64,000 bases of DNA from Coptis chinensis (taxonomy: Eukaryota > Streptophyta > Magnoliopsida > Ranunculales > Ranunculaceae), in assembly GCA_015680905.1 (NCBI GenBank), contig CM027377.1, positions 13,478,501 through 13,542,500 of the forward strand, read 5' to 3'. This document shows, piece by piece, positions 44,716 to 64,000 of the stretch. The first letter of the stretch is position 1, and each line of letters begins with the position of its first letter. The notes under the pieces are model-generated. The model saw nothing but the letters and a program-made list of their open reading frames with translations, had not been told where the DNA came from and did no database searches. A program made the translations under genes and the position numbers.

Positions 44716-49634
<4,919 letters not shown>

Positions 49635-51616: not shown

Positions 51617-54600
51617 ACCGACTGCAAACTTATTGAACTAACCTCAAACAATAATTAACGGGAAATCGGAAACTAGATGAAAATGCAACTTTATCAAATA
51701 ATAAATGAAAAATTGGAAACTTGATACAAATGCATTAAACTAATCTCACAGAATAATTAACGGAAAATCAGAAACTGGATGCAAATGCATTGAACCGACC
51801 TCAAATAATATAACAATTAACAACAAGAAATTGGAAATTGGATGCAAATGTATTAAACTAACCAAAAAGAATAATTAACGAGAAATAAGAAACTAGATGC
51901 AACTGCATTGAACTGATCTCAAAAAATAAATAACGGGAATTGGAAATTGGATGCAACTGCATTGAACTAACCTCAAAATATAAATAACGAAAAATCAGAA
52001 ACTGAATGCAAATGCATTGAACTAACCTCAAAATATAGTTGGGTTGTATGTTGTGGGAATGTCTCGATAAGTATAGTTTTGCATTTAAAATGATATTTAT
52101 CTTATCTCTTTCCGTATGATTGGAAACTCCTTGCTATTCAAGTAGCTTCAATATATATGAACTTCGCCTTATTAGGCAATCTCATAAAACTTCAATCAAA
52201 CTTCTATTATTAAACAACAAAATGAAGTGGAAGGGTTTTATCAAAGCTGAGTTCTTTTTTTTTAATGGAGAGTAAGGTTTTCACGTTATAAGAAATTTGG
52301 TTGAGTGATCAATATAATATTAATATATAATAGTTATGCATATTTGCCAATATTTTTAAGAGTAATTAATATAACAACACCCGTTCGTAGATAATCTTTG
52401 AAGATTTCACATAGTGAGTCATGCATAATTTAAATAATAATTAATGAAAAATCAGGAACTGGATAATCTTTGATGATCCCATGCACATAGTAAATTAAGC
52501 ATAATTTACTTTTATGTCATGTTTGCAAGGACACTACAAATGAATCACTAGACGTTAATATTATACACCTCATTGGATAATTATAAGGAAATCGAAAACT
52601 GGATTCAAATACATATATAACTGAGTTCAAAGAGTAATTAACGGGAAATCGGAAACTTTATGCAAATTGCATTATATTAAACTAACGACAGAGAGTAACT
52701 AACGGGAAATTAGAAATTGGATGCAAATCTTTTAAAAATATTTAATGGAAAATCTGAAATGATATGCAAATACATCAAAGAAACCTCAAATAATAATTAA
52801 TGGGAAACCAGAAACTGGATGCAAATGCATTTAACTTAACTCAAAAAATAATTAACAGAAAATCAAAAACCGAATGCAACTGCATTGAACTAACCTCATA
52901 AAATAATTGGTGGGAAATCGGAAACTAAATGCAAATGCATTGAAATAACCTCAAAAAATAATTAACGGGAAATCAGAAACTGGATATAATTGTATCGAAC
53001 TAACCTAAAAACATAAATAATAAAAAACTAGATGCAGATGTATTGCACTAACCTTAAAGAGTTATTAATGGAAAATCGGAAACTGAATCCAAATACAATA
53101 AACTAATCTCAAAGATTAATTAACGAAACATTAAAAAATGGATGAAACTGCACTGAACTAACCTAAATGAATAATTAACGGGAAATTATAAATTTGATGT
53201 AACTGCATTGAACTAACCTCAAAAAATAATTAACGGAAAATCGGAAACTTGATGCAAATGCATTGAACTAACCTCAAAGAACTATTAACATAAAATCAGA
53301 AATTGGATGTAACTAAATTGAACTAACCTCAAAGAATAATTAACGGAAAACCAACAATTGGATACAACTGCATTAAATTAAAATCAGAGATTAACTAACG
53401 GGAAATCCAACATTGGATGCAAATGTATTGAAATAACCTCAAAAAATAGTTAACTAGAAATCGGAAGTCGGATGTAACTACATCGCATTGACCTCAAAGC
53501 ATAAATGTCAACTTTTTTAGCCTTCTCACATGAGTAATTATAAGTAATTAGGAACCTAAAACAAAAGTGAGTTTGTAAAAACAAACTCTTACATGTATGC
53601 AAACTGTATAGAAATTGTAAACTAACCTAGAAAAACAATTAACGAGAAATCAGAAACTGGATACAGATATATTGAAATAACATCAAAGAGTAATTAACGG
53701 GAGATTGGAACCTGGATACAAATGCAATGAACTAATCTCAAACACTAATTAACAAAACATCGAAAACTAGATGCAACTATACTGAATTAACATTTTAATG
53801 AATAACTAACGGGAAATTATAAAGTTGATGTAATTGCACTGAACTAACCTCAAATAATAATTAACAGAAAATCGGAAATTTGATTAAACTGCATTGAACT
53901 AACCTCAAAGAATAATTAATGAGAAATTAGAAACTGGATGCAACGTAATACATTAAACTAATCTCAAAGAATAATGAATGAAAAATCAGAAACTTGATGC
54001 AAATGCATTTAACTAATAACCCTAAAACATATTTGTATTATATGTAGGGGGAATAAATGTCTCGACAAATATAGTTTTGCATTTCAACTAGTATTTATTA
54101 TAATTCTTTTACTGTGATTGGGAATGCCTTGCTATTCAAGTAGCTTCAATATTATCTTCGCCACATTGGGCATTCTCACAAAACTTCAATCAAACTTTTA
54201 TTATTAAACCTAACAATAAAAAGAAGTTGATGAGTTTTATCAAGGTTTGATGCTTCCTTTTTATAGAGAGTGGTATAAGAAATTTAAATGAGTAATTAAT
54301 ATAATTTTCATATCTCATAGCTATGCATAGTTGCTAATATTTTTTAGAATAATTTAATATAACGACACCTATTCGTAGGATACGTTCATGTGATAAAAAA
54401 TTTCAAGTGGGAGTAGTGTATTCTTTGAGGATATAAAAACAATCAATCTGTTTTAGTGATTTGTACACATTAGTACGTAAGCCGAACGGTGATGATTTAC
54501 CGCTAAATTACCATAAATCTAATAAAACTATTATACACGCTAGATCGAGTTTAAGATAATTTCATTTGAAAATTACGGATTAATATTTTAAACCACAAAG

Positions 54601-55284: not shown

Positions 55285-56643
55285 AGGCTAAGGCTAAGGC
55301 TGAGTCCAATGATTTGGAGTGCTAAAACACCAAACCACAATACAACAGTGGATAGGGTTAGCGGGATAGCGTGATTGGATCCAATGGTTTGTATTTTTTA
55401 CCCCCAGTGGCATAGGCGTGTAGAGGAAAGTCCAAAAAAGTCGGCCCATCTAGCCACATGGCGGGTGGAAAAAAAAATTTGTTTTGTATCCGCCATTAGT
55501 AATTTTGTTTCAAACCCCTTCCCCATTTTACCATTTCTCCCAACTATATCTCCTTCTTTTGCTACTGAACCAAAATTCCAGCCACCACACAGTATGACAT
55601 ATAGATTAGATTTCTTCTGGTCGCCACTTGTACTGGCGTGTAGACCATACGTTATATCGTTAAAACTGGTAGTATAAATAGGTAAAGTTATACCGATAGC
55701 GTTGGTGGGTTAGTGTTTCGACGCACCATTGGATCACAATTCTTGTCATATTTAGTGTTTTGCCGCACTATTGGGCTTAGCATAAGTCCAATGGTTTGGT
55801 GCCCCATCTCATCAAACCACAATAGTATAGTGTATAGAGTTAGCGGGTTAGCGTTTCCAAATCCAATAGTTTTTTTCACAGCCGCTAGTACCAATGGCAT
55901 ATAGGAATTTTTTATTTTGGACTCTCCAACCACCATTCTCTTCTCATTTCTCAAAGGCATGTGGGAACAAAATTTAAAAATAAAAATAAAAAATAGCCGC
56001 CACACAGTGTGGTGTGTGGCTTAGATTTCTGTTAACCGCCACTCATACTGGTGTGTAGACTTGACACTATCTCGTTAAAACTGGCGCTATATATAGGAGT
56101 GTGTAGACTTGATGCTATCTCGTTAAAACTGACGTTATATATAGGTAAACTTATACCGATAGTATTGGCGAATTAGCGTTTTAGCGCACCATTGGATCAA
56201 AAATTTTGTGATATTTGGTGTTTGGCCACACCATTGGACTTAACCTAAGGAGTATTGAAAACATAGATGTTAGGCTAAGTCCAATGGTTTGGTGCGCCAT
56301 CCCACCAAACCACAATAGTATAATGTATAGAGTTAGCGGGTTAGCGTTTCCAAAGCCAATGATTTTTTTCACAGCCACTAGTACCAATGGCGTATAGGAT
56401 TTTTTTTTTGGACTCTCCAACCGCCATTCTCAAAGGCATGTGGGAAACAAAATTTTTTTAATTCTAACTGCCACACAATGTGGCATGTGGCATAGATTTC
56501 TTCTACCTGCTACTCATACTGGCGTGTAGACTTGATGCTATCTCGTTAAAACTGGCGCTATAGATAGGTAAACTTATACTGATAGCGTTGGTGGATTAGC
56601 GTTTTGACGCACTATTGGATCAAAATTTCCGTGATATTTGGTG
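55285..56643. mobile_element. head-to-tail array of three MITE-like units
   Basis: Three diverged copies of a unit of about 470 bp begin near 55290, 55787 and 56273 with (GGCT)AAGTCCAATGGTTTGG. The first two end near 55780 and 56245 with the inverse (CACCATTGGACTTAACC or equivalent). Internal landmarks repeat in order: CACCAAACCACAATA, GTTAGCGGGTTAGCG, CCACTAGTACCAATGGCGTA, CTATCTCGTTAAAACTGGCG and CCGATAGCGTTGG. The last copy stops at 56643, where another repeat begins. No coding capacity. Confidence 0.7.
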
Positions 56644-57721
56644 TAAAGGAGCGTTTTAGTTATCCCTTACAAATGTGATAGGAGATAAGAATGGGTTTAG
56701 AAATGGGAAAGATTGAGTTTGTTGTTGAGCGAACTGCCTACGTATCTATCTCTCGATTCTGGGGGGAGAGAAGAATCAGGTCAGGCGTAGTTCATATAGG
56801 AGGTATTTATAGCTGGTGAATGTGGATATCTATCCAACACGTGTACTGACAAACACAAATGTATGGTCAAGATTGAGAAGGAGTGTTAAAATGGTGTTGG
56901 TAGGAATTCTGTAATGATGGAGAGTGGTTACAGTGGTTCGTAATTTGCGGTAATAGAATGTGTAAGTAAGGCTTTGACAATGATTGCTTCTAGAAGATAG
57001 GTTGAGTCATGATATAGAACGCTCTATGTGAAGTTGTGCGAGTTGATATGTTCTGGAAGAATCTAGTAGAACGGATGTGCGAACTAATGATGTAGGTCAC
57101 TCTGAAGGCAGTTCGGGGGACGAGGTCAGAGTCAGAGTTCGGTGTGGTATTTCCGCTCTGCTGGACACGTGATTGATATTCCTGAATGAGAATATCACTC
57201 TCTCACACAACCCCCTCTCAGTAGGTCGTGTTGTGCATTGAAGTGATCTGCTGAGAAACAACGGTGGCGCGTGTTGAGCATGAGTGAAGAAGCAAATTGG
57301 TGTGAATGGAAATACCCACCGTGCTATGGAGGTCAGTTCGTGTTGTATGATGAACTGATGTGGGGTGAAAGTTGGCACGTTGCTAGCACGTGAGAGAATC
57401 TGAGCAGTTGGTGAGGAAACATGTCGCCGCTTTTTCAGAAATTTTGAAAAGACAGGTCTTTGGTAGACGTGTGCGAGCTAGGACTTAGGTTGTAATCATG
57501 ATGCATTGGGAACTGGAGGGGCGGTTGTATAAAACAACTTTTGGAGATTCGAAAAGCCATTTTTTGTTTCGTTTCCAGAACCGCAGAGACTAGAACTCTT
57601 CAGGTTAGTGCTTCCGCCATTGTTGCTGCTTATTTTTCTTGTGTTCTTGTTTGTTGCGTTCAGTTGTTAGGTCGTCTTTAGCTTGTCTTGTTTAGGATAT
57701 GTAGTCACTAAAAAAAAGGGA
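56644..57721 (+). promoter_or_regulatory. LTR-like/leader region of gag-like copy A
   Basis: TGTAAAGGAGCG at 56644 may be an LTR start; the MITE array is cut off exactly there. A TATTTATAGC motif (about 56808) and an ACACAACCCCCTCTC stretch (57207) parallel those at 27186 and 27403. Nearer the gene, TTGTATAAAACAAC (57523) is a plausible TATA box. A leader intron may run from CAG/GTTAGTGC at 57604 to TTTAG near 57693. Confidence 0.45.
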
Positions 57722-60081
57722 ATGTCTGATTCGGACGATACTCGATCTGAAGAGATTCGAGAAATGTCGTTGAGTTGTGGGGAAATGGAGGATAAGAGGG
57801 AGGAATCAGTAGAGTTTGAGAGTGAGGATGTGGAGGAGGAAATACGATCTGAATCTGTTGCTGCTGTAGCTAGTACTTCAAGTCGTGATGAGGGGTCGTC
57901 CTCTAATGGGTTGCCCCCTAGGGCTGTAGATAAACGTGCAACAAAAGCTTTCGCTGATCTAAGGGAAATGTATGGTATCCAGGGGGGATACTTGGAGATA
58001 TACGAACTGGACAAGAACATAAAGGTGTTCAGTGAAAGGTACACACCACCAAACTATGGGATAATAGTCTGCGAGGGGCAGCTGAGGGCTGGTATGAGGA
58101 TACCGTTCTCGAAGCTGACTTGTGACTTTTTAACGTTCTGTTGGAAAGCGCCCTGCCAGTTTGTGAGTAATACCTGGCGGCTGCTTAGGGTGTTTGATCT
58201 GCTGAATGCGAGTGGTGAATACCGCATAGGGTTGCTGACATTATTGAGCATTACTTAGTAAAGTGATATCGTGCTTTTAACTTTAGCTTGCAAATGGTAA
58301 CAGGAAAATCTAGCGTGTTGGATGGTGTGAGCAATGAGGCTTGGGAGAGGAGGCTGTTGCTGTTAGTGGGGAACTTTCGTGCCTGAGGATGTAGTTTGCA
58401 AACTAGGATTTGCAATTTTTCGGGTGGGTAGGAGTGAATTATTCTGTTGTTTCGATGTTTGAGTTGTTGATATGTTAACTGACATGGTTCCGTGCTATTT
58501 TTGTAGAGCTCGTTATAAAGAAGCGAACTAATCGGGAGGTGATAGAGAAGTTTACGAAGTTAACTCGGGCTCATAAACGGGAGAAACTGCCAGAGGTCGC
58601 GCACTATTTTGTAGAGCGAGGAGGTCGCGTTATCAGGGAGAAGAGGAGAGATCAGAAGAAAAAGGCTCGGGGCCAAACTGTTCGTGACTCGTCTAGTGAA
58701 GCAGCGATGGAGAAGAATAAGAGCGACCTGGTGACGAGGGAGGACAGGAATCGCAGCCGCTCTGGTCCTAAGCGACCTGCCGGAGGTGCTGGAGCCTCGG
58801 GGGCTGGTGGGTCGGTTAGGCGATCTGAAAGGGGAGGGGGTTCTAGTAGCTCTCCCCTTGACTTGGATTAGATGGTCTTCAAGCCTCGCGAGCAGAGCAG
58901 CTGGTTGAAGAGAAAAGCTGCTGAGGCTGAGCCTAGGGCTACTAAGGTTGCAAGGGCTGCGGAACTCATTGTTGGGGGCAGCTCTGGTGCTAGTAGTGCT
59001 GCTGGTGGTGAGCAAGTTGGGGGTAAAACCACTTGTAGCACCAGGTCGAGGCCTGTGCCCGACCTGAGTCTCCTTGATCTGGAGACCTTTGGGGTCAGTT
59101 AGAGTCCACCACCAGTGTCCCGAGAGCCTAGCTCGTCTGCGAGGTTGAAAGTCTCTAGTAAGGTGAGTAGGAAGTCTGTTATGGCTGATGATGATTTGGA
59201 GCACCAAGTGGTGTACTTGGACGACCAGGGGTGCAGTGAACTGTAAAGCAAACCGATGTCAGCTTCAAGTCGAGTAAGATTGCGTCTTGTCTTATTGATT
59301 TCTTGTCTCTGGATGGCAGTCGTAAGGAACTGGACTCCAAAGGCCTTGTTGCAATTTTAGGCGAATGGATGTGGCTCACTGCCTGGTAAGTGACGCTCTT
59401 TAGATCTTGTTTATTACTTCTGTATCTGCATCGCAAATATCGACTGTTATTGTACGTTTATGTGTGTAGCTTGTGAGTGGATATCAGAAGCTAAAGGAGA
59501 TTGCTCAGATCGCTGAGTCTGACAGGGAGTCGGTGTCCAAGCTAAAGGAGGAATTTAAGAATGTCTAGGAGGCGTATGGCATTGATCGCCAGGAGTTCGA
59601 GGACCTGAAGAAAACACATCAGGACGTTTGCTTGACAAATATGGTGATGAGCACCGAGTTGGACGAAACAAAGCTGAAGCTTCGTGCTGTAAGTGAAGAA
59701 CTTGGTGCTACAAAGGCGGAGATTGCCAGAGTGACTGGTTATGCACAACACTGTAAAGACGTCGCTCGGTAGGCTACTGAATCATACGAAACCCTGGACG
59801 TGGATTTCCTCGAGTTGGAGGAAGAGTATAAAGCTTTTAAAGAGGGCCATGAACGCGGGGCTCCCAATACATCAGTGGTACCCGTACTGGGAGATCCATG
59901 TGATGCTCCTATCTTCTCTGCACCAGATCTGAAGGTCGCTGAGTCCCAAACTGAAGAAGTTGCTGTTGACGTGCTTGTGGATGTGGAAGTTGCTGGTCTC
60001 TCTATTGCTGTGGGTGATAGGAACGCTGTAGAGGTTGAACTGGATCCTCTATCGACTGAAAATTTGTCTGTTCTTCTTTGA
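57722..60081 (+). pseudogene. gag-like 'putative gypsy type' (PF04195-like) coiled-coil protein, copy A
   Basis: From MSDSDDTRSEEIREM the acidic N-terminus leads into NYGIIVCEGQLRAGMRIPF, then FCWKAPCQFVSNTWRLLRVF, the pattern of the plant 'putative gypsy type transposon' domain. A frame change near 58225 and a TGA follow (IIEHYLVK, stop, YRAFNFSLQMVTGKSS). Later segments are RTNREVIEKFTKLTRAHKRE, a Ser/Gly/Arg-rich linker, and a coiled coil (SGYQKLKEIAQIAESDRE ... LEEEYKAFKEGHERG) ending at 60081. In-frame stops occur at 58869, 59101 and in the coiled coil (59566, 59772). Related plant retroelement proteins serve as gag-like structural proteins. This copy is dead. Confidence 0.7.
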
Positions 60082-60138
60082 ATTTGTGAGTTGTGAGTGC
60101 TTTCTGCTTGTTCTGATGGTGTATGTTGTGATACATTA

Positions 60139-60572
60139 GAGCTGGTTTCCTGGGGTAACCTAGGCAGTTCTCTTTTCTTTTGGGTTGTAAAAATACTGAA
60201 CGAACTGGCTTCCCGAACTATTTTGAGAAGCTCGTGGGGTGATGAATAGTGACTGACCGAGTTGAATTTCCTGAGTAGACTCAGCAGCTCGGTTAGTAGA
60301 TGAACTGGGACCTAAGGTTGGTCGAGCAGTTCGTCTTTTGCCTTTATGAAATGCCTGTTTTTGCTTCTTTCGTTTTGTTTAAGCTCCTTGATGGTTTGAA
60401 TGTGTGATTCTTGATATTGTTGTAATTGTTTGGCTGTGTATGCGACCCTTAGTAAAAATGGGTGAGGCTTCGTAATCTGTGAGCCTAATTGAGCGTTTTG
60501 CTGCTTAATTCTAGCGTTGTATGGCTCAAATTATGAAAGGTCGGGTGAACGTCTTGCTCTTGTGAAGCGTTC
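60139..60572 (+). repeat. hairpin series A (five bulged hairpins)
   Basis: Downstream of copy A lie A1 60139-60170, A2 60201-60234, A3 60257-60292, A4 60299-60335 and A5 60547-60572. The typical form is an outer stem, a 5'-side bulge of 4-6 mostly T bases, an inner stem and a small loop. Example A3: CCGAGTTG pairs CAGCTCGG, with inner CTGAGT pairing ACTCAG. A4 has a 9-bp outer stem (GATGAACTG with CAGTTCGTC). Confidence 0.8.
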
Positions 60573-60912
60573 TCCCTTATAGATTGCTCTAGTGAGAGGA
60601 GACTGTAGCACATGTATGAATATGAACAGTTGGAGATACCAGATGATGGTTGCCAAGTGGCCTGACGTTTGGCATCTCGATGTAATTATGACGTGTCTTG
60701 GGAAGGTACGTTACTTGAACATAAATAGGAACTGTTGTTAGAAGTTCAATGGTATTTGCTCTACCTCTTCTTCAAGTTGTTCTCCAAGGTACTTGTGTCT
60801 GCTCTTTGCTCGCTGCAGGTAAGTGTCTTTCATTGTTTTCCTTACGTTTTGAATAAGATAGCTTTGTTTTTGTGATTGTTTGCTAAACGTTGGGTTGTTT
60901 GTAAAATATACT
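60573..60912 (+). promoter_or_regulatory. promoter and leader of copy B
   Basis: ACATAAATAGG at about 60719 is a plausible TATA box about 190 bases before the ATG. A leader intron may start at CTGCAG/GTAAGT (60820). Its arrangement parallels that before copy A. Confidence 0.45.
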
Positions 60913-61930
60913 ATGGCCAGGCGACGTGAAAGTGTTGCTGACGATGAGGGGGCGAGGGAAACCTCTCCCTTTGTGATGGAAGATATAGAATTTAAACCTC
61001 GTTGTCAATGCGATCGTGGCAAACGAAAGGTGGTTGCTCCTGAATCAAAAAGTAGAAAACAACCTAAATTTTCAGGTTGTTCTGCTGGAGGTATTATATT
61101 TAGGTCCCCTAGTCGTAGGGATGGGGCCGACTTGGCTGGTGAGGAACGTAGCGACCTGGGTTGGGGCCAACGTGTTGCTGGTGAAAGCTCTGTGCAGTGT
61201 ATTGGCGATCTGGGGAGCGAGTTCTTCTACACTGGGAATATAGGAAAGAAATGTATGGTGAAACGTTCTAATTGTAGCTTCCACTCAGCACCCATAGTGA
61301 CCTGTATTCTGGAGGGGATTGTGTTGGATGGTGACAAGGCAGAGCTTGAAGATGAAACCCTGGAGACAACTCTGAAGACCATAGATATGGCATGTTGTTT
61401 GGTGAGTTCCTTATCTGTACTGGTTTCTTGTTGTCTTGTTGTCGAATATAACATTAATGTTCCATTTGTAGTTCCTTGCTGAATATGATAAGTTAAAGAA
61501 TACCGTCCAATGTACTGATAATGGCAAAAATGATGTGAGAAAGGCCAAGAAAGAACTGGCGAGGATGCGAGCTGCGTGGGAGGATGATAAGAAGAAATTG
61601 CAAGCTATGACAAAAAAACACCCTGACGTAGCTGATGAGAGGTTGGTGTTGGTTATTTCAATGATGGACTTGCAAGAAAAGCTGGCTGTTGTGACGAAGT
61701 ACACTTAGCATTGCCAGGGCGTTGCACGCAAGGCGCAAGGTGCATACGACTGGGCATGCAGCGAATTTGCAATGCTGGAAGAGAAAAACTTGCAGTTGAA
61801 AGAGGCGTGTGATTGTGGGGCTCTAGGTACGAGTATGCATGTCGTACCAAGAGATGCGAGGAACGCTCCCTCGACCAGTGTTGCTCCCGATGTGCCTGCT
61901 GATGATAAACATATTGTTCCTGGTTCTTGA
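60913..61930 (+). pseudogene. gag-like coiled-coil protein, copy B (lacks N-terminal domain)
   Basis: Exon 1 (60913-61401) starts MARRRESVADDEGARETSPF and joins in phase 0 to exon 2 at 61472 (FLAEYDKLKNTVQ) across a GT-AG intron. A Lys/Glu-rich coiled coil (RKAKKELARMRAAWEDDKKK) runs to an in-frame TAG at 61706. Sequence continues after it to a second stop at 61930 and aligns with copy A (HCQGVARKAQGAYDWACSEF against HCKDVARxATESYETLDVDF; then ALGTSMHVVPRD against APNTSVVPVLGD). The PF04195-like N-terminal domain of copy A is absent. The stop at 61706 sits within a few residues of conserved HC, so the copy is probably inactivated or truncated. Confidence 0.65.
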
Positions 61931-62021
61931 TTATGGTTTATGGACTTGTATTTTGAATGTAAGCTGTGAAATACTTGAAATGTTTTGCCTGTTCCTTTCC
62001 TTGGAAGAGATTAAAACTATA

Positions 62022-62359
62022 GAACTAGTTTCCCAGGCTCGTCTAGGCAGTTCGCTTTGCTTTATGGTTACATCGCTACAGAATGAACTGGCTTCCACGT
62101 AAGTGGCAACTCGATATTTCCAAAAATTGTATGCAAACCGATCTGGATTTCTGGGTAGTCCCAGCAGATCGGTGGATTGGTGAACTGGTTTCCTGAGTTT
62201 GTTCAGGCAGTTCAAATTATGGATTTTTTGGAATGCATGTCATTTGCCTATGCTTAACTGCCTGTACTTATTGTTTTGTCCATAGTAAATAAGGTATGTA
62301 GGGGCTAAGGAACCTGAGAATTAGCTGGAAGAAACGTTTTGCTCGTAGAGAGCGTTCTT
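62022..62359 (+). repeat. hairpin series B (five bulged hairpins)
   Basis: B1 62022-62053, B2 62085-62112, B3 62137-62173, B4 62181-62214 and B5 62330-62359 occur in the same order as series A and at the same place after the gene. B3 has a perfect 9-bp outer stem (ACCGATCTG with CAGATCGGT), bulge GATTT, and inner stem CTGGG/CCCAG with loop TAGT. B4 pairs TGAACTG with CAGTTCA, with inner CCTGA/TCAGG. B5 pairs AAC with GTT around GCTC/GAGC, with a GTTTT bulge. Confidence 0.82.
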
Positions 62360-62433
62360 ACTTAGTTGCTCCTAGAGTTGTAGGTCGTCAACTAGTAAGA
62401 ACTATGTATGCTATGGAGCCTGGTAGCTCGAGT

Positions 62434-62712
62434 GAGCGTGTTAGCTTAAGAAAGCGTGGTGCTCGCTGAGAGCGTGTTAGCTTAAGAAAGCGTGGTGCTC
62501 GCTGAGAGCGTGTTAGCTTAAGAAAGCGTAGTGCTCGGTGAGAGCGTGTTAGCTTAAGAAAGCGTGTTGCTCGCTGAGAGCGTGTTAACTTAAGAAAGCG
62601 TGGTGCTCGTTGAGAGCGTGTTAGCTTAAAAAAGCGTAGTGCTCGCTGAGAGCGTGTTAGCTTAAGAAAGCGTGTTGCTCACTGAGAGCGTGTTAACTTA
62701 AGACAGTGTGTT
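62434..62712 (+). repeat. 36-bp tandem repeat, about 7.7 copies
   Basis: The unit GTGTTAGCTTAAGAAAGCGT then GGTGCTCGCTGAGAGC repeats head to tail with 0-4 differences per copy. Each unit contains GCTC-GCTGA-GAGC, the inner hairpin of B5 (GCTC-GTAGA-GAGC), and a CTTAAG palindrome. Confidence 0.95.
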
Positions 62713-64000
62713 GTGATATATGCTCTTTACTACTACTTAGAGTTTTGATCTCTAAGAATTGATGCAAAAGCACTCAAGGTTCCTTACTCACGATCTTCGT
62801 TTCGTAGAGTTAGAATAAAGATTCGAACTAAACTAAAGCTTAGAACAACTACAAATTGGAATTTACAATTAAAGGAAACTAAGGAGTAAGGTCATAATAT
62901 AAATGCTAGATTTTTCCTTCCTACATAAACATTAAGAAAACATTAACGTTGAAAACATTCACTTAATACCGAAATAGAGATTTGAAAGAGAAGGTGGAGA
63001 GTTAATCCTCCTCATGTGAAATTATCATTAGTGTTGATTTGAAAAAGGTTTTGATTCTTCCTAGACTCATAGACAAGTCCCTAACGGAAAAATAGATTTG
63101 ATCCCTAGCATGCATGGCTCACTAAAGAGCTCATACATGCTAGCAAGTGAAACCAAACAACGACTTATCTCTAAGCTCATTGCTTGATTCCTAACTAAAT
63201 TCTACACCAACTACCATTTTGGGATAGGATGTAGAGTTAGTTGTTCTTCCTAAACCTACCAAACCAACAACAATTGGTTTACCCTCACATGAGTTGGATT
63301 AACTCCCCAAAAGGGAAGTTATCTTATGATCCTTGGGACAAGGATTTATAAACTAAGAAAAATACAAAAGAGAGAGAGAGAGAGAGGAGAAAGATGAACA
63401 ATCAAACTCACTTCTATTTCTTTTCTAGAAGAAACAAGTGTTCCTCCATTAAAACTATTACAAGCTTTTTAATAAAAACTAAAACTAACTTCATTTCTTT
63501 CACTAAGGAACTAAAATAATGCCATGTGAGGAAAATAAGTCAAGGGAGTAAATGGAGTGTCCCCCACCCTTGTCTAATTTCTTCTCCATTTGAGAGAAAT
63601 CTCATTTCCTCCCACGTGAATTATCAAACCACATTAATGAATTTTTATCCACCACATTAAAACAAAGTGACACCTTGCCTTTTTTTTTCACTATTAACAC
63701 CTAATCTAATTTATTACATGCAAGGTGTCAACTTTGCACCAATAATTTGTTATCTTTGTCTTGACATGCTCCATGATTGATGACTCATCCAATCTTGTGG
63801 CCCCGCATAGTGGGTCCATGTGCAGTCCAGTGGCGGTCCGGTATTTTGGGCAAGTTGTTATAATTTCCTTTATCGTAGAGTTCATCGCCTACGATTGTCT
63901 AAGCATCTCTCGTGGTCGATTCGAGTCCCGGTTTCGAGAGGTAGGAGCTTTGGAAGTTTGATGCTTCGTGTGGATTTGGGAGAATTCAGATATACGTGCT
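62713..64000. other. no gene recognised to the window edge
   Basis: AT-rich DNA with a (GA)n run at about 63366-63387. Sequence near 63825-63990 (GTGGCGGTCCGG, CGATTCGAGTCCCGG) is more GC-rich but has no tRNA fold or protein frame that I can support. It may be the edge of another repeat. Confidence 0.45.

Follow-up and report, generated by a model that had tools for sequence, protein, structure and literature searches.

The window analysed here is a stretch of 64,000 nucleotides of the Coptis chinensis genome (935,630,033 bases), running from position 13,478,501 to 13,542,500 of contig CM027377.1 (G000:C1:13478501-13542500). It contains two ORFs, each followed by about four bulged hairpins, and a tandem array of short repeats (Table 1). 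The general hairpin shape is a lower stem of 6-12 bp, a 5' bulge of 4-6 nt (mostly U-rich) and an upper stem of 4-6 bp, capped by a short loop that is often a tetraloop. Series 1 occupies 60139-60332 and series 2 occupies 62022-62214. This is where an earlier note on the same DNA had seen two hairpin series, and the letters it gave for hairpin 3 were likewise confirmed. Its count of five hairpins per series holds loosely: the outlying fifth hairpin of series 1 resembles the downstream array unit and is unlike H1-H4.

Table 1. Hairpins, repeats and reading frames in the window. z compares single-hairpin RNA folding with shuffled sequence; CM E is the E-value from covariance models trained on other loci only.
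Feature	Position	Strand	CM E	z	Remarks
First antisense ORF, N-terminal exon	57722..58255	+			TRP28/Transposase_28-like, weak; first 'gag-like' copy of the earlier note
First antisense ORF, remainder	58530..60078	+			reading frames, broken by stops
Series 1 H1	60139..60170	+	9e-12	-2.8	GUAA loop, GUUU bulge
Series 1 H2	60202..60233	+	0.039	-0.9 (60197-60240)	lower stem mismatched in most copies
Series 1 H3	60253..60296	+	1.2e-9 (60256-60293)	-5.7
Series 1 H4	60302..60332	+	0.039	-3.9 (60298-60338)
Series 1 H5	60543..60576	+		-4.6	predicted fold without 5' bulge; related to array unit
Second antisense ORF	60913..61927	+			interrupted by stop at 61706-61708; intron 61402-61471
Series 2 H1' (type A)	62022..62053	+	8.8e-8	-0.05	decayed here
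Series 2 H2' (type C)	62084..62113	+	1.2e-8	-0.2	GUAA loop; lower stem decayed here
Series 2 H3' (type D)	62137..62173	+	3.4e-16	-5.2
Series 2 H4' (type E)	62181..62214	+	1.9e-11	-3.5	one G·U pair in 40/40 copies
Series 2 H5'	62330..62359	+		-0.8	start of array-type repeats
Tandem array, 36-nt units	62362..62785	+			GCTC/GAGC-type short hairpin per unit; outer copies diverged

Elsewhere in the window we note a block of imperfect repeats at 52006-54382 with many internal self-matches (71-83% identity), and, upstream of the element at 55585-56644, a short repeat of interspersed appearance in diverged direct copies (79-88% identity). Curated Rfam covariance models at the gathering score give a single match in the window, a U6 spliceosomal RNA gene or copy at 48943-49051 on the minus strand (83.8 bits). 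A known Rfam family is thereby ruled out for the hairpins.

Folded one at a time, six hairpins of the window copy (H1, H3, H4, H5, H3' and H4') do better than their shuffles. Folding of the other four (H2, H5', H2' and H1') is no better than in shuffled sequence, and the window copy is therefore partly decayed. In 38 of 40 copies, including the window, the outermost positions of H1 (60138-60171) do not pair. When the plus strand of the 64 kb is scanned with a bulged-hairpin descriptor, 60253-60296 ranks first (tied) and 62137-62173 fifth; 62181-62214 ranks eighth and 60138-60171 ninth. The remaining five of the top nine are two AT repeats and three unrelated hairpins. For the covariance models, the best match in the window beyond 60138-62214 has an E-value of 0.38.

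The core of the array hairpin is found 169 times, against 39 times in shuffled sequence. With 51 G·U to 32 A·C cells, the inner four pairs of the array hairpins give little indication of strand. The repeat length of the array varies by copy: the window has units of 36 nt, other copies have units of about 120 and about 138 nt. Arrays downstream of the hairpins in four other loci (L011, L015, L018 and L027) have differing repeat lengths and related hairpin cores.

The hairpins occur in many dispersed copies of one retrotransposon family across the genome. The pattern of H4' has 164 exact matches genome-wide and the reversed-pattern control none; the exact hairpin pattern has no match in viral contigs. 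Twenty 10-kb loci, taken as the surroundings of H4' pattern matches, share a common plan: along the hairpin strand come the first antisense ORF, series 1, the second antisense ORF, series 2 and the array, followed by integrase, RNase H and reverse transcriptase (RT) on the opposite strand. Among the matches listed, the 'gag-like' ORFs are seen on the hairpin strand in all 20 loci, and 18 of these loci have RT, RNase H or integrase, in opposite orientation, downstream of the hairpins; the other two loci (L013 and L028) have no pol match among those listed. Both antisense ORFs are not visible in every locus among the matches listed, partly since the stretches end. Pfam matches above their cut-offs are RVT_1 in L012 and RVT_3, RNase_H and Integrase_H2C2 in L018; rve in L010 falls below its cut-off. 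The ORFs that the earlier note called gag-like are antisense to pol, and a gag identity is ruled out by this orientation.

Queries with RT, RNase H and integrase give zero matches in the window, and the element copy there looks truncated or interrupted. At 62786-64000 the integrase end that most relatives have after the array (pol in 18 of 20) is missing, and other sequence is found instead.

The first antisense ORF of the window matches PF04195 (TRP28) with 15.5 bits (E 0.021), which is under the cut-off of 26.2. Its N-terminal exon is 59-67% identical to the ORF of locus L010, in which PF04195 has no match at E 0.001; used as a query for protein homologues, a portion of L010's first antisense ORF brought up 746 candidates, none of them at E 0.001. 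The C-terminus of the second antisense ORF partly resembles that of the first (40% identity over 62 residues). The intron of the second antisense ORF is GT-AG on the hairpin strand, with the donor GT kept in 11 of the 12 loci that have a match and the acceptor AG in all nine loci that reach the acceptor. This suggests that the hairpin strand is that of a spliced mRNA. Given the conserved intron together with the orientation of pol and the ORFs, the hairpins would belong to the RNA of the antisense ORFs.

From these sequences we regard the element as probably a Retand-like member of the Tat group of Ty3/gypsy, with antisense ORFs between integrase and the presumed 3' LTR. The label is kept at 'Retand-like' because PF04195 stays under its cut-off and the assignment draws on domains and layout. 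Grande, RIRE2 and Retand are all named in PMC11963269, an account of the Tat group. Every element in its description of Retand carries antisense ORFs in the interval from pol to the 3' LTR, 97% of clusters have TRP28 and about half have tandem arrays; Transposase_28 is given for 23% of Retand elements in PMC6317226. What our element shares with Retand as portrayed in PMC11963269 is an extended stretch from pol to the presumed 3' LTR that contains antisense ORFs and tandem arrays, with RT, RNase H and integrase on the opposite strand. It is unlike Retand in that TRP28 is under the Pfam cut-off and in having a pair of antisense ORFs, both of them accompanied by a separate hairpin series. The short-repeat array beside the hairpin series likewise resembles the tandem-repeat 3' regions of Tat elements (PMC11963269), whereas the series themselves are ordered and non-tandem, with stem letters that vary and pairing that is largely kept. 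The words hairpin, stem, secondary structure and inverted repeat have zero occurrences in the main text of PMC11963269, and a literature search of partial coverage found no published description of such hairpins.

This layout brings up one explanation in which the hairpins mark the boundary of converging transcripts: they would end, process or protect the 3' ends of the pol and antisense RNAs, or prevent long duplex RNA. The antisense ORFs and pol indeed converge here, and hairpins and array occupy the gap between them. However, series 1 lies between the two antisense ORFs, away from the boundary with pol, and a terminator would presumably need no recurring type of bulge and loop. We consider a boundary function distinctly unlikely.

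The order of the hairpins varies among subfamilies. For 81 of the other 163 H4' matches (in 80 stretches, L009-L088) and the two window series, 83 entries together, the order upstream of the H4' anchor is A-C-D in 34, A-B-C in 26, B-A-D in seven and something other or partial in 16. Homologues were also collected by BLAST with series 1 and series 2 of the window; from 774 and 963 first-look candidates, each search gave 40 scored matches. For 15 of the 40 series-1 places listed, a series-2 place is listed in the same orientation 1.8-3.2 kb further downstream. Covariance matches at E 0.05 in the 20 loci, some of which had supplied sequences to the models, fall in the two clusters apart from three weak matches of the R3 model (in L018, L020 and L027); a few of the matches are the same hairpins read on the opposite strand. 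Type C came out misaligned when all types were aligned together (A1), and no models were built from that alignment.

Loops and bulges are recurrent, and CUUG closed by G-C and GNRA are stable RNA loop classes. A CUUG loop closed by G-C is found in 43 of 78 hairpins of type A, and GNRA loops in 35 of 44 of type B and 32 of 67 of type C. Type D loops are mostly UAGA or UAGU; as a rule, neither class is seen in types D and E. In series 2 of the BLAST homologues CUUG is present in 36 of 40 H1' and GNRA in 32 of 40 H2'. The majority loops of series 2 (CTTG, GTAA, TAGT and TTTG) are all not self-complementary, so that kissing-loop dimerisation, as a form of the dimerisation signal suggested earlier, is without support and is rejected. 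The T-rich 5' bulge reported in the earlier note recurs as GUUU in most hairpins of types A (62 of 78) and C (52 of 67); it does not extend to type B, where AUAA is found in 28 of 44, or to H5, which is predicted to fold without a 5' bulge.

A different explanation sees the stems as DNA palindromes to which a TRP28 protein would bind, or as a cruciform, with no role as RNA. The half-sites GAACTG/CAGTTC do recur, and TRP28 is predicted as DNA-binding in PMC11963269. Type D, however, replaces the half-sites yet keeps the pairing, and neither the loop types nor the excess of G·U over A·C given below is explained by DNA sites or by the cruciform that the earlier note had proposed. We therefore hold an action as DNA to be very unlikely.

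Pairing was tallied in unselected sets, that is the 40 series-1 and 40 series-2 copies obtained by BLAST, the window included; some of these overlap the pattern-chosen loci. The eight hairpins hold 3220 Watson-Crick, 460 G·U, 179 A·C, 140 other and 41 gapped cells. Over the 101 stem pairs the commonest state is Watson-Crick in 90, G·U in nine, A·C in one and something else in one. The earlier statement that pairing is kept thus stands for 99 of the 101 pairs, which have a standard commonest pair, and breaks down in series 1 H2: here we find the sole standing A·C pair (A·C in 34 of 40) and another pair that is non-standard in 39 of 40. In H3 the compensatory changes that had been described are two-sided for the outer G-C to T-A and the inner A-T to G-C, whereas T·G to C-G is one-sided.

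Under strand-symmetric mutation, G·U and A·C would be expected in about equal numbers; for nine standing G·U pairs against one standing A·C pair, a two-sided binomial test gives p of about 0.02. In unpaired columns the bias runs in the opposite direction (C>T 14, G>A 25). Among 235 hairpins chosen by probes there are 399 G·U and 119 A·C cells. The majorities of nine clusters (the probe-chosen types plus H1 and H3 of series 1, without series 1 H2, bearer of the A·C) give 98 Watson-Crick, 16 G·U and 0 A·C cells. The probes for types A-D were fully paired, which favours pairing. One-sided branch changes from Watson-Crick lead to G·U in 167 cases and to A·C in 102. Inner branches account for 33, 13 and 5 changes to G·U, A·C and other states, and tip branches for 134, 89 and 61 (Fisher p 0.02 for kept versus broken, inner versus tip). 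Without the pairs that have G·U or A·C as their commonest state, about 206 G·U and 137 A·C cells are left, and much of the single change is therefore neutral decay.

Fold energies differ between the strands as well. RNAalifold yields -36.3, -34.0 and -49.4 kcal/mol for three architectures on the antisense strand against -16.4, -13.2 and -32.5 on the genomic strand (2.2-, 2.6- and 1.5-fold stronger), with z-scores of -11.3, -7.9 and -4.6 against -7.6, -5.4 and -4.3. The unselected sets show -31.3 against -5.9 and -25.2 against -9.0, with z-scores of -9.1 against -4.8 and -4.4 against -3.3. The consensus folds fail to reproduce all four hairpins as drawn. Alignments of both strands fold better than shuffled ones.

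On account of the G·U excess over A·C, the CUUG and GNRA loops and these energies, the evidence leans towards folding in the antisense mRNA, more than in genomic RNA or as a DNA cruciform. The hairpins, their recurrence and their place can be read from the sequences, the strand less firmly. The hairpins might instead work in genomic (pol-sense) RNA, in packaging or 3' control, their folding in the antisense RNA being incidental. They lie between pol and the presumed 3' LTR and so are expected in genomic RNA; the folds of H3' and H4' on that strand are almost as good as the antisense ones, genomic-strand alignments of all three architectures beat shuffled ones (0 of 60 each), and series 1 H2 has its standing A·C pair. 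Against this are the nine standing G·U pairs to one A·C, the G·U pair present in every H4' copy, the occurrence of the CUUG and GNRA loops on the antisense strand, and genomic-strand energies that are less than half as strong in two of the three architectures. A role in genomic RNA is in our view unlikely. The earlier note's proposal of a retroelement RNA signal is accordingly borne out as to structure but not as to molecule and context, for which RNA of the antisense ORFs is favoured, and packaging becomes less likely.

The strict test of covariation, an APC-corrected G-test run on every pair of columns against a tree null, finds 0 significant pairs in all four types. In a relocation null, where the changes of each column are kept and moved on the tree, pairing as high as observed is reached in 0 of 300 cases for types A, C and D; type B is not above this null (79/300). 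The measure for the other strand is also high (9/300 for A, 0/300 for C and D), and the relocation test fails to tell the strands apart. For the unselected close homologues the paired fraction is not above the relocation null in H1 and H3 of series 1 (187/300) and is weakly above it in series 2 (17/300). The covariation score is matched by 0/500 and 2/500 shuffles; the count of two-sided pairs is not above shuffles (198/500 and 351/500). Double transitions convert G-C to A-T without selection. Covariation exists between subfamilies and is weak or absent in close copies and in the strict test. Change in close copies is mostly decay after insertion, the selected signal being seen between subfamilies and in the standing pairs.

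The earlier note had named two observations that would speak against its reading, stems broken as often as restored and pairs arising by duplication of one palindrome. Both are partly seen: on tip branches, changes that break a pair and changes to G·U occur in similar numbers (150 and 134), and the hairpins of one series look like duplicated modules. It might be argued that the hairpins are functionless now, one ancestral palindrome having been duplicated into series, spread by copying of the element and left to decay. The likeness of hairpins within a series, the mostly neutral change in close copies, the negative strict test and the mismatched H2 of series 1 all agree with this. Nonetheless, stems change on both sides between subfamilies while nearly all pairs keep a standard commonest state, types A, C and D pair above the tree null, and the loop types are kept. 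We give the absence of function a very low probability, and selection for structure in the retroelement, as originally proposed, is supported.

The reading we tentatively prefer, with close to an even chance of being right, is a cis-acting hairpin array in the 3'UTRs of two spliced antisense mRNAs, serving as a multi-site landing pad for one protein. The 3'UTR assignment is made because each series is placed after an antisense stop, and the landing array is proposed because bulge and loop recur while stem letters drift. The Tat-group (Retand-like) Ty3/gypsy element would transcribe two spliced mRNAs antisense to gag-pol, each carrying about four bulged hairpins in its 3' untranslated part. Most hairpins would offer a like, U-rich short 5' bulge and a stable loop, the stem letters being free to vary. 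One protein may then recognise the bulge and loop of a helix at several places in each RNA, and its docking would control export, stability or translation of the antisense mRNA. We infer that the antisense RNA is made and folded in the cell and that such a protein binds it. The first candidate would be the element's own antisense (TRP28-like) product, the second a host factor. The basic stretch at 58530-58868 of the first antisense ORF (29 K+R and 16 D+E in 113 residues) would fit an RNA-binding role, without showing one.

RRE, TAR and CTE are retroviral multi-hairpin RNA elements with clustered bulged stem-loops. The hairpins described here are similar in that bulged stem-loops are clustered in the RNA of a retroelement and suited to protein binding at multiple points. 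They differ, if our reading of the strand is right, by lying in antisense rather than genomic RNA, and are likened by form alone. A more specific version of the preferred reading, which we regard as doubtful, is an RNA-protein circuit of the antisense strand in which the antisense-encoded proteins recognise hairpins in their own 3'UTRs, as an analogue of Rev/RRE.

According to PMC11963269, it is unknown what the antisense ORFs of these plant elements do. A folded RNA signal after each antisense ORF would offer a way to study the working of the antisense genes, and the proposal predicts a specific RNA ligand for the antisense-ORF proteins. If true, it would be a structured RNA element of a retroelement's antisense message and not of its genome.
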